64,000 bases of DNA from assembly GCA_026390165.1 (NCBI GenBank), contig JAPLGM010000015.1:62001-126000 (forward strand), read 5' to 3'. The translations under genes and the position numbers were made by a program. The notes beneath the pieces are model-generated. The model made no database searches and was not told the DNA's origin. It saw only the letters and a program-made list of their open reading frames with translations. Of the stretch, positions 46,748 to 57,902 are shown piece after piece (position 1 is the first letter of the stretch; every line of letters begins with the position of its first letter). This DNA is from Campylobacterales bacterium (GTDB taxonomy: Bacteria > Campylobacterota > Campylobacteria > Campylobacterales > Sulfurimonadaceae).

Positions 46748-48352
46748 TTAAATCTCCAGCCATTTTGTCAATATCTCACGCAAAAGCCCTTTATCGATCG
46801 GTTTGGCGATATGTTCGTTCATCCCTGCCATTAGGGAACGTTCTCGATCCTCTTTCATGACGGCAGCACTGAGGGCAATAATAGGGAGTGTTGCATTAAA
46901 GGTACGGATCTCTTGGGTCGCTTCATACCCGTCCATAATAGGCATTTGCAAATCCATTAAAATCGCATCGTAGTGGTGACGTTTCACCATTTCAACGGCT
47001 TCGACTCCATGGTTGGCAATGGTGACATTAAAGCCCATTTGTTTGAGTCGCTCCGATGCCACTAACTGATTAATATCATTATCTTCAACGAGTAAAATAT
47101 GAAAAGTTTTGGGAAAAAGTATCGAAGGTTTTGGAGTGGTTTCGAGCGGTGGGAGGCGGTTTTCATCGGAGGGGATCGTAAAAAAAGCACTAAAGGTAAA
47201 CGTTGTCCCCTCATTGGGAATACTATGCGCCGTGATGATCCCATCCATCAAGTAGACCATATCTTTGGCGATCATCAATCCGAGACCCGTCCCTCCGTAT
47301 TTACGGGTGAACGAGGCATTTGCTTGATAGAACGGTTCAAAAATGTTACTGAGCTGTTGCGTGCTCATCCCTATCCCGCTGTCTTGTACGTCAAAGCGGA
47401 ATTGATACCGTTTCTCATCGGATGTAAGGAGCGAGATAGAGAGTGAAACTTCCCCGAATTCAGTAAATTTGAGGGCATTTCCGATGAGATTGCTCAAAAT
47501 CTGCTGAAGCCGAAGGGGATCGCCAACCAGTTTCCGAGGGAGATTAGGGGCAACATTAAAAATGAGTTGAATTTTTTTCTCTTCGGCTTTATAGTCAAAG
47601 AGGGCGTGAAGAGTGGAGAGAATTTTGTCCAGATCAAAAAGGGTTATTTCGAGATGAAGTTTATTTGCTTCGATTTTTGAATAATCAAGGATGTCGTTGA
47701 TAACCCCAAGCAATGCCTTAGCAGAGGTTTCTGCTTTGGTGAGATAATCACGCTGCATCGGACTTAAATTCGTTCCTAAAACCAGATCGGTTAGTCCGAT
47801 AATCCCATTAAGTGGGGTGCGGATTTCATGTGACATATTGGCGAGAAAACTGCTTTTTGCTTTATTAGCATTTTCAGCTGCCTCTTTGGCGGTGATAAGG
47901 GCTTGTTCAAACGTTTTGTCGATCGTGATGTCCCGATTAATCCCCACCATATAGAGAGGATTTCCATTCGTCTCTCTTTTGACAACGGAGGTTGCTTTGA
48001 CGTATTTGATGGTGCCATTGGGGACGATAATACGAAATGAGGTATCAAACGGGGCAATATTATGGAGAGCATTTTGAAGCTCCTGCTCGGCACGTTCTAC
48101 ATCATCGGGATGGCATCGGCTGATCCAGTGTTCGTACGCAAGGGTACTTTTTTGCATTCTTTTTGGGATTTCATAAAGTTGATACATCTTCTCATCCCAA
48201 ACGAGGGTGTTCTTTTTGATGTCCCATACCCATATCCCAATATCGGCAGCATCGGTTGCTAGACGGAGACGGTCATACGTTTCAGAGAGTTCATCTCCCT
48301 TTTGCCCGTTAAAAGAATTCAAAGCCATCCCCCTCTTCAAGGGTAGTTTCAT
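46748..48352 (-). CDS. PAS-domain hybrid histidine kinase with receiver
   Basis: A 534-residue cytoplasmic kinase without transmembrane helices. The PAS/PAC sensor is about residues 25-150, the dimerisation/phosphoacceptor has [14 protein letters not shown] (His near 174), and the ATPase has DSGIGMS and [14 protein letters not shown]. The C-terminal receiver has its Asp in [15 protein letters not shown] (near 468). With the two genes upstream it forms a phosphorelay. Its start overlaps the end of the response-regulator gene by 44 bases; an ATG at 48328 is an alternative start. Confidence 0.9.
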
Positions 48353-49604
48353 CTACCGGTTCCAAAAAGGATTGGATCATCTGAATATTGGAGAAGATGG
48401 ATGCGTCCATAAAATCAATGGAGGGTGCCCCCTCATAAAAGATACTTCTAAACCATAGTATCAGATCATTATTGAAGCTGCTGCACAAGGTAGACATTTG
48501 AGATGCCATTATTATGAAAACCTCTTCATCTTTTTTGATAATTGAGGTCAAATCGTGAATGGCACTCCCTAGTGTATTGGTTTGTATATAAAACATTAAT
48601 ATCCCCGATATTTTCTCAAAAGCCGTTGTGATTTGATCGACATCTTGCTCTGTGAGTTCATTACTCCCCATCCATACAAACTGGGTTGAGAGGTCTCCTA
48701 GTTTGAGCTCAAGTGAATTTCGATCATCTTCCTCCATAAAATCGAAGTGTTGAAGGATTTGGGCTTCTTTTTCATAGGTTGTATTGAAGGGGATCTCTCG
48801 TGTTGATGGAGATGACACTTCGGCGGAAAGAGGGGTGGTATCTCTGGAGATTTTGAACGAGAGGCAATTGGATTCCATTTGATATTCGATAGTCTCAAAG
48901 TGATTTTTAATCATTTGAAGAATATTCTTGGTGGGAAATGTTTCGATAGGGAGAATTGAAAAGAAAAAATCCTCTTCATTCTCTTCCATAATAATCTCAG
49001 GCTGGAGGTTATGGGAGAGGAGGGAGAGTCCTAATTGGTAGATAAATCGGATAAGATCACTTAAAAAGTTGGTTCGAACGTTGTCTTTGATTCTAAAGAG
49101 GAGCGATTCCCATAACTGCGCGAGATCCTCTTCATCTTCGATCAAATAGATGGTTTTGTAGCAAAAAATAGTATTGCTAAAGAGATTATGGCTTTGTTTG
49201 GAAGAGAGAGTCCCCTTTGCACTGTTTAGCATACTCAAGTAAAGTTCCAAACGGTGTTTGAAGACATCTGGTTGGATCGGTTTGATACAATAGTCTTTAG
49301 CACCATTTCGGAGCGCTTTGATCTGATTCTCTTCATCCTCCTCGGTAGAGACAATGACAATGATAGTGTTGGGTAAAATTGCACTGATACGTTTGGTCGC
49401 TTCAATCCCATCCATAATGGGCATTAAAATGTCCATAAAGATCAAATCATACTGAGTATTTTGAGACAAAGCCACCGCTTCGATTCCGTTGTTAGCGGTT
49501 GTGATAGTTACCGCCTCCCCGTGTTGCTTGCTGTATTGGTTGATGTAGGCTTCCAAAAGAGTTTGGTTAAGACTCTGGTCATCGACAATCAGTATTTTTT
49601 TCAT
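48309..49604 (-). CDS. Response regulator with uncharacterised large output domain
   Basis: About 431 residues. Residues 1-120 form a complete receiver (KKILIVDDQ, Asp in [20 protein letters not shown] as the conserved Lys-Pro). The remaining 300 residues match no output domain I know; they are mixed alpha/beta with an acidic stretch ([18 protein letters not shown]). The start at 49604 follows GAGGAGGAA. It lies between the Hpt gene and the hybrid kinase. Confidence 0.78.
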
Positions 49605-49634
49605 TAGGGATTCCTCCTCACTTTTTGTTAGCAT

Positions 49635-50018
49635 TCATCCTGTAATCTCTTGTTCCATCTGTCGAATCATCCATTTGGCTTCACTATGAATCTGTTCCAA
49701 TGTTTTAAGGCTCTCTTCTGCAGAGAGGGTTTCCCTATCTTTTTCAAATCGTTCACAAAGAAACCCCAGTGTTTCGAGGAAAAGATTTTTAGAAATCCCT
49801 TTGAGAGAGTGTATTGCCATTTTTAGTTGCACAGGATCATCGGGATACTCGTGAAGTTGATTCAAGATGGTGGATATATTATTGATGAACTTTTTAAACA
49901 GCTCTTTAATGATTGTTTCGGGGAGTTCTAAACGCAAGGCGAGAGTAGAAGCCGTGATAACTTCTACCGAAGAGTTTGATAATGGTATGGGTTTAAAATT
50001 ATTATTAATGGTACTCAT
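49635..50018 (-). CDS. Histidine phosphotransfer (Hpt) domain protein
   Basis: A 127-residue helical protein with AIHSLKGISKNLFLETLGFLCERFE near residues 70-94; His71 is the expected phosphoacceptor of an Hpt domain (HSLKG motif). It probably shuttles phosphate between the receivers of the hybrid kinase and the response regulator. It lies 30 bp upstream of the latter, in the same operon. Confidence 0.82.
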   Translation of the reverse strand: MSTINNNFKPIPLSNSSVEVITASTLALRLELPETIIKELFKKFINNISTILNQLHEYPDDPVQLKMAIHSLKGISKNLFLETLGFLCERFEKDRETLSAEESLKTLEQIHSEAKWMIRQMEQEITG

Positions 50019-50098: not shown

Positions 50099-50980
50099 TT
50101 ACCCCTTTACTCGCTCTATGCGTGCTGTTTCTTGAGATTTATAGAGTTCCGCACACCCTTTTGCAAGCTCACGGATTTTCAAAATATAGTTCGCCCGCTC
50201 CGTCACCGAAATTGCTTTACGCGCATCGAGAGTGTTAAACGTATGGGATGCCATCATACACAAATCATACGCAGGGAGGGGGAGTTCCGCGTCTAAACAC
50301 CGTTTACACTCGGCTGATTTGGATTCAAAATCGGCAAAGAGCATAGCCGTATCGGCAATTTCAAAGTTGTATTTGCTAAACTGAATTTCACCTTCTTTAT
50401 GGATGTCACGGTACAATGTTTTACCATATTGGTTCTCACTCCACACGATGTCAAAAACCGTATCAACCCCTTGGAGATACATTGCCAGACGCTCTGTTCC
50501 GTAGGTAATCTCCACGGCGACAGGATCACACGCGATCCCCCCTACTTGCTGGAAATAGGTGAACTGTGTCACCTCCATCCCATTGAGCCACACTTCCCAA
50601 CCCAAACCCCATGCACCCAATGTCGGAGACTCCCAGTTATCTTCGACGAAGCGGATATCATGATCTTTGAGATTAAGTCCCAAATATTCTAAACTTTTGA
50701 GATAAAGCTCTTGGATATTGGCAGGGCTTGGTTTGATAAGGGCTTGAAACTGATAGTAGCTCCCCAAACGGTTCGGGTTTTCCCCGTAACGTCCATCGGT
50801 AGGGCGACGGCTAGGGGCGACGTAGGCAACTGACCATGGTTGCGAATCAAGTGAACGCAAGAAGGTTGCAGGATGAAACGTCCCCGCACCTGCTGCGATG
50901 TCGTAAGGCTGTACGATGGCACACCCTTGATCATTCCAAAATTGTTGTAGTTTTAAAAGCATATCACCGAAAGTTATCAT
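50099..50980 (-). CDS. glyQ: Glycyl-tRNA synthetase alpha subunit
   Basis: A 293-residue catalytic subunit of the heterotetrameric glycyl-tRNA synthetase. [21 protein letters not shown] and [16 protein letters not shown] are conserved motifs, and [36 protein letters not shown] is the class II core. Its beta partner (glyS) is not nearby. TATAAT at 51008-51013 (minus strand) is a good -10. Confidence 0.97.
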
Positions 50981-51066: not shown

Positions 51067-52284
51067 TTATCTTAAGAGTCTTGATCCAATAAAGCGTATC
51101 ATCTTTTGACTCACACCGACGTGTTGTGCAAAGTGCGACCATTGCGCCACCGATGTATACACTTCATCATAGATTGTGACCCCATTTTTGAGTCGATGTT
51201 TTTTGGCGAGTGCCAAGAGATGCTCTTTCGTCGGGTTTTTCCCCTCTCCCGCAACCATCGTGCTATGCTCTCCCCCCGGTCCACTGGAGAGGGTAATATC
51301 ATAGATCGGTGAAAACTTCCACGCTCCCTTCTCATCCATGAGAAACGAGAAATTTTTGGCATGATCATCACGATTATGGGCAAAGAGGTTGAAACACGCG
51401 AGGCGAAAAACTTTCTCTTGCTCTTGGATATTTTTGGTGAGGTGTAGGCTCAACGAGAGGAGATCATCGTAATCCAAGCACGGAAATCGAAAATCACTAT
51501 GGACTAATCCTGCCACCGAGTGGACATGAACACGCGTATCGCCCATCCGATCAAATCGTTCACAGGCGAAATAATTCCCCTTTTTCCCCTCCAACAGTGC
51601 CGTTTTTGGCATCTCTAATCCCGCTTCTTTCGCCATCAGCGAATAGGCATATTCGATAGCTCCGCTTTCAGGGTGATCTGTCCCAGAGGCAAATTTAACC
51701 ATCCAATGAGAATATCCCTCTTGGAGCGGTTGCGACCCGTGGATAATCTCTCTACGATCATCGCTGAGTTGTACCATCGCTTTGGGACGCGCCCCTGCGG
51801 ATGAGCCATTGAGAATCAAAAGTTCATCGATCAGCTCCTCACTGCTCCCCGCTAAAATCTCTTGCGAATGAAGTGCTAGATGATCGAGTACGATGGTATC
51901 CACAGAGGGATTTTCGATCTCGTGAAAAGGTTCGTAGCTCAGTGCACCCATCCCGTAAATTCCGACATACCCCAGCCGATCCAGTGGGGTCAAATCGTGT
52001 GCATGAATACCCAATCGCATCAAATGCCTATCCATCAACAACCGACCCCAACCATCGGGCAATGAGTCATTAAATACCCCCCATAAGCCCTCAAACGTAT
52101 CATCATCGCATCGCATGACACCTGCTTTGAGCGGTAGTTTATAGGGAGATATTTCGATACCCGTTTTGAGAAATGCTTGGTCATACTCGAAATAGATTTT
52201 CCGATCTTTGTAGGCGAGGGTTCCTACTTTTTGTTTTTGGGTGGTGTTGAGGTGGACGGTGAGTTTGGGGGTGAATGGGGTCAT
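51067..52284 (-). CDS. hipA: HipA-family serine/threonine kinase toxin
   Basis: A 405-residue kinase of the HipA type, the toxin of type II hipBA modules; the E. coli prototype inactivates GltX by phosphorylation. Gly-rich SSAGARPKA at 161-169 matches the E. coli autophosphorylation loop (Ser150 region). The catalytic loop HNRDDHAKNFSF at 303-314 and the metal-binding YDIT at 328-331 are intact, so it looks active. Its GC content is higher than that of the two AT-rich genes upstream. The gap to the helicase gene is 16 bp. Its presumed antitoxin gene is 3.7 kb upstream, separated from it by the gajA-gajB-like pair. Confidence 0.88.
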   Translation of the reverse strand: MTPFTPKLTVHLNTTQKQKVGTLAYKDRKIYFEYDQAFLKTGIEISPYKLPLKAGVMRCDDDTFEGLWGVFNDSLPDGWGRLLMDRHLMRLGIHAHDLTPLDRLGYVGIYGMGALSYEPFHEIENPSVDTIVLDHLALHSQEILAGSSEELIDELLILNGSSAGARPKAMVQLSDDRREIIHGSQPLQEGYSHWMVKFASGTDHPESGAIEYAYSLMAKEAGLEMPKTALLEGKKGNYFACERFDRMGDTRVHVHSVAGLVHSDFRFPCLDYDDLLSLSLHLTKNIQEQEKVFRLACFNLFAHNRDDHAKNFSFLMDEKGAWKFSPIYDITLSSGPGGEHSTMVAGEGKNPTKEHLLALAKKHRLKNGVTIYDEVYTSVAQWSHFAQHVGVSQKMIRFIGSRLLR

Positions 52285-52300
52285 TTCTATATACTTTTTT

Positions 52301-53983
52301 TCAGTTTGTTACTTCAGTAAATAATTCTTTAATTTTTTGCAATGAACTTCCTGTCAATGGAGATAAAGCCAAAATAACTAAATTAATTTTTGCCCTTGAA
52401 CAAACAACATAAAATAAATTTTTAGTTCTATTATAAATACTTTCATTTGTTGTATCACCTGAAAAATATTTTTCAAAACTATAATTTCTCCAAGCATCAT
52501 CATCTATGACAACTAAAACATTTTCAAATTCTGCACCTTTTGTTCCGTGTTTTGTTGAAAATGGCGTTTGCTCATCTGCCACTTTATTTGCTTGAATAAT
52601 CTCTTTATACGGTCTCTCCATAAGTCCATTATAGTAAGTTTTGTTGCTTTCATCTTCTAAATCAAAATCATTCATTTTTTGACTTACTTGAAGAAGTTTT
52701 TTATCAATAACAAGTTTAAAAATCTCTTCAACTGTTTTAGTTGCTCGTATTGCTACAAACTCATCCAAAATACTTTTCAAAGTTTTTTTATCTTCAAAAG
52801 AGTTGATTTCAAAATTAATTTCTTTGAGCAAGCTTTGAATTTTATTCTCTTGATATAACAAAACAACATTTTCTATTTGGTATAAAAATTTAATGAATGG
52901 GCATCTATCTTTATCTTTTTTTGTTAATGCATCTGATTTATCACTAGCATTAACTAAATTATAAAGTTCTTCATACTTATTTTCTCTAGCAATTAATTTA
53001 TGTGTTAAATACAAAACTTTTAAATTATGTAAATCATCCTCTAAATTAAATTTGTCTTTTAATTCATGAACTATAAAACTATCTAAATTAAAATCAGTAT
53101 TTGGCTTTTGATAAAAAGTACAGCTACCCTCTATATCTTTATTTGTTCCACTCGGAATTTGTTTTATATCATCTCTAATTTTATTAAGTAAATTAACAAC
53201 CGAAACAGAACATCTATAATTTTCAGGTTTGGTAATTCTTTTTAGATTATAGGTTAAAGGTATCTCACCAATCCCTGTATCATAAATCTTTTGCATTTTA
53301 TCGCCATAAAAACCAAATAAAATTTTATTTGTAGGCAATAAGTAGTCCAATAAAATATTAATAATTTTTGGAAATGTATCTTGATACTCGTCAACAAAAA
53401 TGATTGGATATGAATCAGCTACTATTTTTCTAATCGTCGGGTAAGAAGAAAATATATTACTAGATAACTCAATCACTTCATCATGACTAATGATATTGTT
53501 TTTATAAGAGAAATAGTTTTTATACTGCGTTGTATTTTGAGTTAAAATCAACTCATTTTTACTTGATTCTAATTTTTCTTTTTTTTCTAAATTATTAGCA
53601 TAAGTCTTTGTGGTTGTATTTTTGGCTTTATCTAATTCACTTTGAACTTTTGTAATTTTCTCATCTATAAGCTCTATCAGTTTTACCTTCAACTCTTTTT
53701 TAAATTGAGAGATACAACTCCATAAAAAATCATGAATAGTGCTAACCATCACAAGTTCATTGTTTTCTAATCTTTCAATAATCTCATTTTTTGCCACATT
53801 TGTATAGGTGATACAAACAATTTTTTGATTATTTCTATTAAAACTTTCGGCATTTTTGTCAATAATATATTTAAGTGATTCGATTAACGACCAAGTTTTA
53901 CCACTCCCTGCACCCGCATCTAAAACAAAACTTTCTTTAGTATCAATACTTTCATAAATTTGCTCTATTATTGGGAAAGCCAT
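52301..53983 (-). CDS. GajB-like UvrD/Rep superfamily 1 helicase
   Basis: About 560 residues. Walker A AGAGSGKT is at 23-30, motif Ia-like TYTNVAKNEI near 59-68, TIHDF near 82-86, Walker B VDEYQDTFP at 197-205, then FGFYGDKMQKIY, the UvrD-type FSTKHGTKGAEFENVLVV and FYVVCSRAKINLVI. It is smaller than full UvrD and lacks obvious 2B insertions, as in GajB of the Gabija anti-phage system. The ATG at 53983, preceded by AGAGGGATT, is preferred over a start 12 codons earlier. It overlaps the OLD nuclease gene by 16 bases. AT-rich. Confidence 0.85.
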   Translation of the reverse strand: MAFPIIEQIYESIDTKESFVLDAGAGSGKTWSLIESLKYIIDKNAESFNRNNQKIVCITYTNVAKNEIIERLENNELVMVSTIHDFLWSCISQFKKELKVKLIELIDEKITKVQSELDKAKNTTTKTYANNLEKKEKLESSKNELILTQNTTQYKNYFSYKNNIISHDEVIELSSNIFSSYPTIRKIVADSYPIIFVDEYQDTFPKIINILLDYLLPTNKILFGFYGDKMQKIYDTGIGEIPLTYNLKRITKPENYRCSVSVVNLLNKIRDDIKQIPSGTNKDIEGSCTFYQKPNTDFNLDSFIVHELKDKFNLEDDLHNLKVLYLTHKLIARENKYEELYNLVNASDKSDALTKKDKDRCPFIKFLYQIENVVLLYQENKIQSLLKEINFEINSFEDKKTLKSILDEFVAIRATKTVEEIFKLVIDKKLLQVSQKMNDFDLEDESNKTYYNGLMERPYKEIIQANKVADEQTPFSTKHGTKGAEFENVLVVIDDDAWRNYSFEKYFSGDTTNESIYNRTKNLFYVVCSRAKINLVILALSPLTGSSLQKIKELFTEVTN

Positions 53984-55947
53984 ATTAATCCCTCTTTGAT
54001 ATAAGTTGGAATATTCCAATCGTCTTGATTACTCAATAAATCAAATGCGAAGTCTGTTTTCTTTTTGTTACTATCAATATAATCTTGAATCTCAAAAGAA
54101 TTGTCTAATACCTCACTTTCTGAATTATAATTCTTGAGTTTATTTTTTATACTCACTAAATTGTCTTTATTATCAAATACATATTTTGGATTCTCAATAA
54201 TAAAAGCCTCTTCAAAACTTCTGCCGCATTTGATTTCTGTTGAATTAATTTTTATCTGATATGCAACTCTTATTTTTTGTACTATTTTTTCTTCGTTTGT
54301 TGTTGCTAGCAAATCTAATATTTTATTTTTACACGGAAGCCAATTTTTTAAACATGCATTACTTGTGTACAAATTATCCGAATTAATTATTTGACATTTT
54401 GGATATGTTGTTTGGACACTTCCTTTTTCATTGGTACTTTCTTTTTTTTCTACAGAATCAATGTCCGTAATTATTAATGTTTTAATCTCTAAAAAAATCA
54501 ATAACTCCTTAAATTTATCCATATATGCCCCACCAACTTCTATATATGAAATATATTGTTCAGATAATTTTGTACCATTTGAAGCATCCAGTTTTTTGAT
54601 GAAAATAGGCATCAAAAGTCGTTCTACTACTCCTTCAAAAAGAATTGCTTTATCAGAGAAAAAGAGTTCTCCTTTGTCTAAGGTCAAATATTGTTCCAAA
54701 AATTTTAATGTATGAGGCTCTGTAAGTTCTGTATGAAATTTTCTTAAATCTTTTATTTGAGTGCTGTAAGCATTTTTAGAAAAATATCTAATTGATTCAA
54801 ATTCAGCATTCGTCAAAATGTGGGATGAATGAGTTGATATTATTACTTGAACATTAAAACCTTTAGTAGCTAAAAAGTTAGTAATGTTTTTTATAAACAC
54901 CGTTTGCATTTGTGGATGCATATGTGCTTCTGGTTCTTCAATGAAAAGTAAATTTAAATCACACTTTTTATCTTGATGTAAAATTTCAAAACTCAAGATT
55001 TTTGAAATAATGTACATAAGATTTTTATACCCTAAACCATTGTATTTTTCAGGCAGTAAATTATCATCATGATTATAAACAAGTCTTACATTATTTCTAA
55101 AAAGGCTTTCCATTTCAATTTTTGATTGTAATTGAAGTTTTTCATTATTGATTCCAGGGAAACCAAAATCCAAAAAAGACTCGATAAATTGTTCAAAAAA
55201 AACTTCTAGCTTTTTTTCAATTTCAATATTTGCAGTATCCGTAGCTTTTATAAGCTCTTCTGAACTGTTATCTTCTTTTTTTCTTTTATAGTCATATTGC
55301 TGTTGAAAAATTGACGAAAGTTTTGTGTTGTTGGATTTACTATCTTCTAAATCTCGTTGCGCTTCAATAAAATGGCATTGTAGTAATCTTTGCACATCAG
55401 AAAATTCCAATTTACTAGCATTCTCAGTATCTGAATATGGCAGGATGATCGGTTGATAATAACTACTAAATAACAACTTGATTTTATCTATTAAATCGCT
55501 ACCGTCTAACAAATCTTTGCTGATAGTTTCTAAAAACTTTTCACTATCTTTTGGAGAATACTCAAATAAAATCTTTATCTCATTACTCTCTTCAAGTGAT
55601 GAAATAAAAGGCTTAATGTGTACCCAATTATCAGCTTCCGTATATTCTATTGTCAATATGAGTTTTATTTTAGGAATTATTTGAATAATTTCTTTAATTT
55701 TTTCTTCTTTATTTGTAGTATTAATTTGAGTAAAATAAGAATATGCGTCATAAAACTTTTGATGTGCTTTTATAGAAAAGTCTTCAAAATCAAATTTTCT
55801 ACCATTCATAAATATATTAAAAATTTCAGAGAATGATGTTTTACCTGAATTGTTTTTACCGACAATTGCCGTTGTTATATCTTCAAGGTTAATCTCTATA
55901 TTGTCTAATAATCTAAAGTTTTCTATTTTAATATTTTTGATTTTCAT
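53968..55947 (-). CDS. GajA-like OLD-family ATPase-TOPRIM nuclease
   Basis: A 659-residue OLD-family protein. The ABC-type ATPase domain has Walker A GKNNSGKT at 30-37, a signature-like NGLGYKNLMY near 303-312, Walker B LLFIEEPEAHMHP near 333-345 and STHS at 371-374. The C-terminal TOPRIM domain has FEGVVE (Glu438) and ITDIDS (Asp495, Asp497), then SFEEAFI near 577. Class 2 OLD enzymes are encoded next to UvrD-like helicases, which is the Gabija arrangement (GajA nicks DNA when NTPs fall during infection). It overlaps the antitoxin-like gene by 4 bases (ATGA). AT-rich; longer than the B. cereus GajA (578). Confidence 0.87.
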   Translation of the reverse strand: MKIKNIKIENFRLLDNIEINLEDITTAIVGKNNSGKTSFSEIFNIFMNGRKFDFEDFSIKAHQKFYDAYSYFTQINTTNKEEKIKEIIQIIPKIKLILTIEYTEADNWVHIKPFISSLEESNEIKILFEYSPKDSEKFLETISKDLLDGSDLIDKIKLLFSSYYQPIILPYSDTENASKLEFSDVQRLLQCHFIEAQRDLEDSKSNNTKLSSIFQQQYDYKRKKEDNSSEELIKATDTANIEIEKKLEVFFEQFIESFLDFGFPGINNEKLQLQSKIEMESLFRNNVRLVYNHDDNLLPEKYNGLGYKNLMYIISKILSFEILHQDKKCDLNLLFIEEPEAHMHPQMQTVFIKNITNFLATKGFNVQVIISTHSSHILTNAEFESIRYFSKNAYSTQIKDLRKFHTELTEPHTLKFLEQYLTLDKGELFFSDKAILFEGVVERLLMPIFIKKLDASNGTKLSEQYISYIEVGGAYMDKFKELLIFLEIKTLIITDIDSVEKKESTNEKGSVQTTYPKCQIINSDNLYTSNACLKNWLPCKNKILDLLATTNEEKIVQKIRVAYQIKINSTEIKCGRSFEEAFIIENPKYVFDNKDNLVSIKNKLKNYNSESEVLDNSFEIQDYIDSNKKKTDFAFDLLSNQDDWNIPTYIKEGLIWLSQ

Positions 55948-56258
55948 AATTTTCTAATTTCTTTTTTCTCTATTGTATCATTTTCATTCAAAACCTCTTC
56001 CAAACTCCCATAAACCTTTTCTTTCGGTTTACAAACCCCCTCGAAATCCCCCAAACATTCCAAAATAAACGCCAGTTTGAGAAGAGAATCGAAGGAAATA
56101 TCGCCACTGTGTTCGAAGCGTTTGAGGGAGCCTAAACTCACCCCTGAGCGGGTGGAGAGTTCTTTTTGGGTGTAGCGCAGGGTGCGTCGTCGTTCTCGAA
56201 ATTTGGTTCGGAGTTCTTCGATAATATGGTGAGGCTCTTTGGGTAAAAAGGATAACAT
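55944..56258 (-). CDS. HipB-like XRE helix-turn-helix antitoxin
   Basis: A 104-residue protein with an XRE DNA-binding domain at about 13-75 (LRTKFRERRRTLRYTQKELSTRSGVSLGSLKRFEHSG). Transcriptional repressor/antitoxin HipB proteins have this fold and lie directly before hipA. Here the next gene is the OLD nuclease, and hipA comes fourth. Base composition changes within the last 15 codons (NENDTIEKKEIRKL), which are AT-rich like gajA, so the original 3' end may have been replaced at the insertion junction. Confidence 0.8.
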   Translation of the reverse strand: MLSFLPKEPHHIIEELRTKFRERRRTLRYTQKELSTRSGVSLGSLKRFEHSGDISFDSLLKLAFILECLGDFEGVCKPKEKVYGSLEEVLNENDTIEKKEIRKL

Positions 56259-56259
56259 G

Positions 56260-56296
56260 TTAGCTCTTTTGCAATAATATTAACAATTATAGCTAA
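56260..56296 (-). promoter_or_regulatory. Promoter and candidate operator of the hipB-gajAB-hipA operon
   Basis: TATAAT (complement of 56286-56291) is a plausible -10 about 28 bp before the hipB ATG. It lies between inverted arms TTAGCT (56260-56265) and AGCTAA (56291-56296), which could be an autorepression site for the HipB-like protein. No good -35 is visible. Confidence 0.4.
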
Positions 56297-56351
56297 TATA
56301 TTATCTTTTTAATCCAACTTGCAGATTATAGAACCAACATCAATACGAAAC

Positions 56352-57902
56352 TTACTGTATCACTACTTTGTTTTTTCCACTGGTTTTGGCAGCATAAAGG
56401 GCCTCATCTACCCGCTTCAAAAACGAGTCGGCAGTATCCGTTTCTAAGAAGTTTGTTACTCCAAGGCTTATGGTAACCTTGCCTACAGCGCCAAAGGTGT
56501 GATTCTCTATTGCTTTACGCAACCGCTTGGCGAGAATAGATGCCTCATCCTCTGGGATATCCGGTTGCAGTATCATAAACTCTTCTCCTCCCCATCGGGC
56601 TAAAAGATCGCTTTTCCGGATATTCGCATTTCCGATATGGGCTATCTCTTTTAATACATGATCACCCGATATATGTCCATAGCTATCATTAACCTTTTTA
56701 AAGTCATCAATATCAAATAAAATGACGGAGAGGGCAACTTTATATCTTTTTGCTCTGTCTATGGAGTAGTGGAGAACTTCATCAAACTTCAGTCGATTAG
56801 CAATACCCGTCAGTTTGTCTATTGACGCGAGTTGTTCAAACTTCTTTTCCAAAAGCATATGTTGGGTGACATCTTTTCCTGTCGATACAAAAGAGGTGAT
56901 TTTCCCTTTGTGATTTTTGATTGCCGCAATGGCTTTATACTCGTGATAGAGTTCGCCATTTTTCTTTTTATTAACCATATAACTTCTAAAGGTCTTGCCA
57001 CTTCGTATGGTTTTCCATAAGTTTTGGTAAAAGGGTGTCGAATGTCTCCCTGATTTGACGATAGAGGCATTTTTACCGTACGACTCTTTTTTGGTAAACC
57101 CTGTTTGTTCTTCAAAAGCAGGGTTCGTATACAAAACTATCCCCTCTTTATCGGTGATTAGAACACTGTCACCGCTTACTTCAATCGCTTTTGAGAGTTG
57201 AACTAATTGGGATTCAACCTCAAGACGCATTTTTCGTAATAAGCTGATAGTAATCAAAACCATTAAAATAGCAAAGAGTGCTCTAAAAAGCTGAACGGGT
57301 AAACCGACGTATTCTTGGAAAGCAGTCGTATTTAGCAGTGAAGCCATCCCTATAGATGCATTAGAGACGATGACTCCAGCTAGTACACCATAGGCGAAGA
57401 AGCTTATGCTCAATAGGAATAGGTGCTTCTTATATAGGTGAGACCCCTCGTTATCTTTGTATTTAAATAGTGTATATGCCGTTAAAAAGGTAGCGGGAAT
57501 AGCAATCAAGTAGCGTGTCCATACATTTCCTGCTAGGTAAATATTGCTGTTTTGAAAGGTGAGGGCGATGAGCATCGTTACGAGTACGGCAGTAATAAAG
57601 ATCAGATGGGAGAATAAAAATCTTTTGAAACTATCTACAAGAGAGATGAGTCCAAAATAGAGTAAGAAAAGGTACGAAAGGGGGAGTAATAGTAAATTTA
57701 TTTTATTAAAGAGAAGGGCATTAGAAGGTTCTATGAGTTTAAACATATCGATCCACTCAACAATGCCATGAAGGATACCGAAAATACCTATCAGCCAAAG
57801 ATGTTTTACGAATCGTTTATCTTGTAACCCTTTGGGATACAACAATATCGCCCCACCAAAGGTGAAAAAAGAGAGCCCGTAAATAAAAAAAATAGTAATC
57901 AT
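56352..57902 (-). CDS. Membrane PAS-GGDEF diguanylate cyclase
   Basis: A 516-residue protein. About seven N-terminal transmembrane helices (residues 1-225), then PAS/PAC (about 232-350) and GGDEF (355-516). The active-site motif RWGGEEF is intact, and RKSD five residues before it is a c-di-GMP inhibitory I-site. It probably makes c-di-GMP in response to a membrane or redox signal. It stands alone downstream of the DUF89 gene. Confidence 0.9.
   Translation of the reverse strand: MITIFFIYGLSFFTFGGAILLYPKGLQDKRFVKHLWLIGIFGILHGIVEWIDMFKLIEPSNALLFNKINLLLLPLSYLFLLYFGLISLVDSFKRFLFSHLIFITAVLVTMLIALTFQNSNIYLAGNVWTRYLIAIPATFLTAYTLFKYKDNEGSHLYKKHLFLLSISFFAYGVLAGVIVSNASIGMASLLNTTAFQEYVGLPVQLFRALFAILMVLITISLLRKMRLEVESQLVQLSKAIEVSGDSVLITDKEGIVLYTNPAFEEQTGFTKKESYGKNASIVKSGRHSTPFYQNLWKTIRSGKTFRSYMVNKKKNGELYHEYKAIAAIKNHKGKITSFVSTGKDVTQHMLLEKKFEQLASIDKLTGIANRLKFDEVLHYSIDRAKRYKVALSVILFDIDDFKKVNDSYGHISGDHVLKEIAHIGNANIRKSDLLARWGGEEFMILQPDIPEDEASILAKRLRKAIENHTFGAVGKVTISLGVTNFLETDTADSFLKRVDEALYAAKTSGKNKVVIQ

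Follow-up and report, generated by a model that had tools for sequence, protein, structure and literature searches.

A Gabija cassette inserted at the hipB–hipA boundary of a toxin-antitoxin operon in a member of the Sulfurimonadaceae

The window analysed here is a stretch of 64,000 nucleotides from contig JAPLGM010000015.1 of a Campylobacterales bacterium (family Sulfurimonadaceae, assembly GCA_026390165.1). It contains, on the minus strand, an array of four genes in the order hipB, gajA, gajB and hipA, all of which read as open frames. The features of the locus are listed below; G008, G022 and G040 are genomes with which it was compared.

50099..50980, minus strand: glyQ (glycyl-tRNA synthetase alpha), the conserved downstream flank, found likewise in G008, G022 and G040
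51067..52284, minus strand: hipA-like Ser/Thr kinase toxin gene, 405 aa (Pfam, alignment to E. coli HipA, dN/dS)
52285..52300, minus strand: A-rich 16-bp spacer separating gajB from hipA, with no evident Shine-Dalgarno (SD) sequence
52301..53983, minus strand: gajB, UvrD-like SF1 helicase (PADLOC, Pfam UvrD, start and motifs)
53968..55947, minus strand: gajA, OLD-family ATPase-TOPRIM nuclease, 659 aa (PADLOC, Pfam, motifs)
55944..56258, minus strand: hipB-like XRE/HTH gene, by homology a putative antitoxin and repressor, 104 aa
52285..55988, minus strand: inserted segment of about 3,704 bp at about 26% GC, not present at this locus in G022 and G008
55994..56001, minus strand: GGAAGAGG at the 3′ end of hipB, occupying the position of the native hipA SD (comparison with G022 and G008)
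56259..56318, minus strand: tentatively, the hipBA promoter/operator, with TATAAT and an inverted TTAGCT...AGCTAA, conserved in three species
56352..57902, minus strand: GGDEF-domain gene, the upstream flank, also in G008 and G040

The genes are tightly packed. hipB and gajA overlap by 4 bp (55944–55947), gajA and gajB by 16 bp, and a 16-bp gap precedes hipA, all as originally described, provided that gajB starts at the ATG at 53983. This ATG is preceded by AAAGAGGG; the list of open reading frames has an earlier TTG at 54019. The inner pair is AT-rich and the outer pair is not: GC content is 0.27 for gajA and 0.26 for gajB vs. 0.42 for hipB and 0.48 for hipA, with third-position values of 0.20, 0.18, 0.43 and 0.50, respectively, in surrounding DNA of about 0.37–0.53 GC. 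The shift had been placed within the last codons of hipB, and it does start there, at codon 91. From a reading of the window, the neighbouring genes appear to be housekeeping or signalling genes and do not form a defence island. Between recD2 and glyQ (46748–50018), there are genes for a histidine kinase, a response regulator and an HPt-like protein, which are present in G008 and missing from G022.

The inner pair is Gabija, as the original prediction had it. PADLOC matches GajA at 5.5e-183 and GajB at 6.2e-159, and Pfam finds AAA_15 (3.3e-50) and OLD-like_TOPRIM (8.5e-17, full length) in GajA and UvrD (1.5e-20) in GajB. Class 2 OLD nucleases carry a TOPRIM glutamate and a DxD motif (PMC10781630, PMC8136825). 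GajA has an OLD-type ATPase with the Walker A sequence GKNNSGKT (residues 30–37) and a TOPRIM domain with the conserved glutamate in FEGVVE (from residue 437) and the DxD as DID (about residues 495–497, within TDIDS). GajB, encoded by the gene adjoining gajA, is a UvrD-like helicase with Walker A (AGAGSGKT) and Walker B (DEYQDT) motifs.

HipA matches HipA_C (7.2e-45) and Couple_hipA (2.8e-16) and retains intact kinase motifs (NGSSAGARPKA, HNRDDHAKNF and PIYDI). Its alignment with E. coli HipA, whose structure is solved, extends across the HAKNF and YDI kinase-site motifs. HipB gives a weak XRE/HTH_3 match of 23.7 bits, the cut-off being 23 bits, and is identified as HipB because its orthologues directly precede hipA in the intact hipBA of relatives. 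The HTH gene directly adjoins hipA in G022 and G008; in the window, 3.7 kb lie between the two. The locus is thus an interrupted hipBA module, in which, by homology, HipB would neutralise HipA and repress the operon.

The uninterrupted form came from a search of 41 genomes of the genus. Two congeneric sister species carry an uninterrupted hipBA at the same locus, between glyQ and a DUF89 or GGDEF gene, with hipA at 92% (G022) and 84% (G008) identity and a 91-aa HipB to which that of the window is 92% and 87% identical. These empty sites confirm that Gabija was inserted precisely between antitoxin and toxin, and they fix the breakpoints exactly. By alignment, the empty site of G022 is GAGGTATTAGGATGAGTGTATTTACC, with the TGA stop of hipB overlapping the ATG of hipA (ATGA), whereas the window reads GAGGTTTTG|AATGAAAATGATA at the hipB-side junction and TATAGAA|ATGACCCCATTCACC at the hipA-side junction. 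The insert thus sits at the former ATGA stop/start overlap (GC, 26% vs. 44%). HipB retains 90 of its 91 native codons (56258–55989), and its residues 91–104, NENDTIEKKEIRKL, are 14 amino acids encoded by the insert. The stop codon that hipB gained overlaps the start of gajA, again in the ATGA form, and hipA keeps its start codon with residues 2–3 changed.

An integrase, terminal repeats and a clear target-site duplication are all absent from the insert. The one feature shared by its ends is AATGA (55984–55988 and 52281–52285), which is not diagnostic and could reflect microhomology, a short duplication or coincidence. The 14-aa tail of HipB had no match among the C-termini of ORFs upstream of gajA in relatives. 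As the junctions are known from one assembly only, in 32 contigs, an AT-rich gajAB wrongly joined into hipBA by the assembler has to be considered. However, the two junctions coincide with one and the same 4-bp overlap and none of the four frames is broken, which makes the arrangement far from what chance would produce. In addition, the contig is 229 kb long, a second copy of gajAB was not found in the genome, and there is no long repeat at the junctions. A chimera is thus very improbable, and we take the precise insertion of Gabija into hipBA to be real; none of the four genes appears to be damaged.

The insertion is probably recent. The closest gajAB found is in a Sulfurovum metagenome-assembled genome (L056), with 84.9% nucleotide identity over 3,639 bp. 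The similarity spans exactly from the gajA start codon to the end of gajB; the flanks are unrelated and lack hip genes. The gajA of L056 has an in-frame stop (L056:1490–1530), either a decayed gene or an assembly error. A prophage origin was looked for among viral contigs, where a search that detects close relatives only gave no relatives of GajA or HipA.

The hipBA module is itself accessory at the glyQ spot, since G040, which is close by its flanks (100% aa identity for a glyQ fragment and 87% for DUF89), reads glyQ-GGDEF-DUF89 without hipBA, and glyQ adjoins DUF89 in several species. Between the window and G022 (L031), dS is 0.46 for hipA, far below the flanking glyQ (1.29) and DUF89 (1.69), so hipBA was probably exchanged between the two lineages. 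Gabija is a second layer on this accessory module. The outer genes have a low dN/dS vs. relatives, 0.08–0.12 for hipA and 0.09–0.13 for hipB, and hipA shows 18 synonymous vs. 4 non-synonymous codon changes on the window branch. These low values may partly come from the time before the insertion.

How the array is expressed bears on what the insertion means. A scan of the insert found no terminator-like site on the coding strand. Promoter-like sites in the insert were not in excess over shuffled sequences, and the coding strand had no scored site ahead of gajA. Upstream of hipB, the sequence is conserved even when the neighbouring gene is a different one. Given these three observations, one transcript from the hipB promoter is the simplest model, and the four genes probably form one transcription unit. 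From its position, Gabija may reasonably be placed under the control of HipB.

Alternatively, Gabija could have its own promoter within the insert and be transcriptionally separate, in which case its position in hipBA would have no regulatory meaning. A TACAAT element resembling a -10 box lies about 30 bp before gajA, within the 41 bp of insert that precede the gene, and may be such a promoter. The insert is AT-rich, and the nearest relative of the gajAB pair stands in a context without hip genes. However, AT-rich DNA yields such matches by chance, the promoter-like matches are at the shuffled expectation, there is no terminator between hipB and gajA, and the overlaps are tight. We regard separate transcription as possible but unlikely.

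Translational coupling, which the original prediction took to be kept, is retained only in part. At hipB and gajA, the 4-bp overlap is preserved. At hipA, however, the insert has separated the gene from the SD-like sequence at the end of hipB and left it behind the 16-bp gap, and its predicted anti-SD pairing is -0.6 kcal/mol in the window vs. -7.2 and -3.3 kcal/mol in the relatives. Lower toxin output is therefore expected. The other change concerns the antitoxin. The last 16 residues of E. coli HipB, which are unstructured, serve as a degradation signal for Lon and are dispensable for binding to DNA and HipA (PMC3376134). By analogy, the foreign tail, at the place corresponding to this degron, could change the turnover of HipB without loss of function.

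The layout was sought beyond the window in a family search of 228 genomes, which gave 130 distinct HipA loci. A short ORF lies directly upstream of 107 of the 130 genes. In 14, hipB was scored as the gene directly downstream, and in four that were scored otherwise a hipB overlaps the 3′ end of hipA. Only in the window do large genes separate hipB from hipA (1 of 130). Candidates for further nested cases among the loci without an obvious upstream hipB were rejected, as they had an overlapping downstream hipB, a missed short partner, no recognised partner or a contig edge. In all five annotated plasmid relatives of HipA, an HTH gene adjoins.

From the Gabija side, HipA or HipB lies beside gajAB in none of 48 loci of GajA relatives from the genome collection, and no other close GajA was found in 397 genomes of the phylum. 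In several of the 48 loci, gajA stands directly behind restriction-modification or AAA_14/DUF4143 genes, some with the same 4-bp overlap. Gabija is often a closely spaced downstream cistron of other systems’ genes, and hipBA is a new host for it. A different hipBA, in G013, has an AT-rich pair of ORFs of 329 and 674 aa 1.7 kb downstream (L047:12744–15754); the larger is weakly GajA-like (E = 2e-7), possibly marking another defence pair beside hipBA. No description of a hipB-gajAB-hipA layout was found in the open-access literature, and the parts consulted of a survey of Hip kinase gene organisation (PMC8262856) do not mention one. The layout is unreported in the literature searched, the parts being already known, and is so far a single case in one species and not a recurring system.

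This bears on the proposal that the four genes are a selected joint unit, in which HipB represses Gabija and HipA serves as a second-line abortive effector, released when a phage or a deletion disturbs the operon. The four intact ORFs form a tight array on one strand, the kinase motifs of HipA are intact and its gene has a low dN/dS, and both the hipA start codon and the 4-bp overlap at gajA are preserved. However, the arrangement is unique among the 130 HipA loci and absent near the 48 Gabija relatives, the SD and the coupling are lost at hipA, the low dN/dS may predate the insertion, and the precision is explained by neutral landing at one harmless spot. Selection as a joint unit is thus improbable. 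The original prediction fares accordingly: a single unit is favoured by the shared strand and the lack of a coding-strand terminator or of a promoter excess, with no sign that it was selected as such, and the claim of a combined system is weakened, by the criterion given with the prediction itself, by an arrangement found in one assembly. A more elaborate version, in which HipB with its new tail and altered turnover would set both the dose of Gabija and the release of toxin, so that loss of HipB upon infection would raise Gabija and free HipA as a back-up, with the operon selected as one unit, seems decidedly improbable.

The best explanation as a whole, which we hold with good but not complete confidence, is a single insertion of Gabija into hipBA, with a hipB promoter that would be shared and HipA as a bystander. 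A complete gajA-gajB cassette would have come from a low-GC donor, plausibly another member of the Campylobacterota, and entered once and fairly recently at the ATGA overlap of the accessory hipBA that lies between the GGDEF gene and glyQ. At its left breakpoint the insert is in frame, which gives HipB its 90 native residues and a foreign tail with a stop overlapping the gajA start, and the right breakpoint spared the hipA start codon. The autoregulated hipB promoter would then produce a single transcript of four genes, and Gabija expression would track the levels of HipB and HipA. hipA, as the last gene and without its own SD, would be expressed less than it was in the ancestral module, which would be tolerated because an excess of antitoxin is safe. 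Gabija would act as elsewhere, with the GajA-GajB complex cleaving phage DNA upon infection. HipA might add an element of addiction, since deletions of hipB and gajA that spare hipA would be selected against. Most likely, then, Gabija borrowed the hipB promoter, and HipA, now expressed at a lower level, is a bystander.

The locus shows, to the base, how a defence cassette can enter a toxin-antitoxin operon and leave it unbroken. Hardly any position other than the antitoxin–toxin seam would let an insertion spare both genes. Together with its two uninterrupted relatives, the locus makes a natural before-and-after set for studying the possible borrowing of a toxin-antitoxin promoter by a defence system. 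The same set bears on how the swapped HipB tail, the part recognised by Lon in E. coli HipB (PMC3376134), affects control of the toxin.

Compared with known Gabija systems, in which GajA and GajB are arranged in an operon (PMC10781630, PMC13304284), the window likewise has a class 2 OLD ATPase-TOPRIM GajA followed by a UvrD-like GajB with a short overlap in an operonic arrangement. It differs in that hipB and hipA enclose the pair, so that the array opens with the antitoxin gene of a toxin-antitoxin module, whereas in the relatives read Gabija either occurs on its own or has restriction-modification and AAA genes as neighbours. A parallel is offered by Gabija at restriction-modification loci, as on an Aliarcobacter plasmid (NZ_CP104379, L287), where a compact gajAB likewise sits amid another system’s genes with its start codon abutting the upstream gene; there, the neighbours are restriction-modification genes instead of a toxin-antitoxin module. 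That gajAB lies between a DUF2130 gene and genes for a site-specific DNA methyltransferase, RhuM and a helicase, as if embedded in a restriction-modification locus.

In CreTA-like, toxin-antitoxin-guarded defence, loss of the defence genes releases the toxin. A guard role of this kind is not directly predicted for Gabija here, because the expected antitoxin is HipB. As in other type II hipBA modules, the XRE antitoxin comes first and the HipA kinase last, on the same strand and behind a conserved upstream region, and the locus is 84–92% identical to the intact hipBA at the same position in two species. It differs from them by the 3.7 kb insert at the overlap, the replaced tail of HipB and the uncoupling of hipA from hipB.
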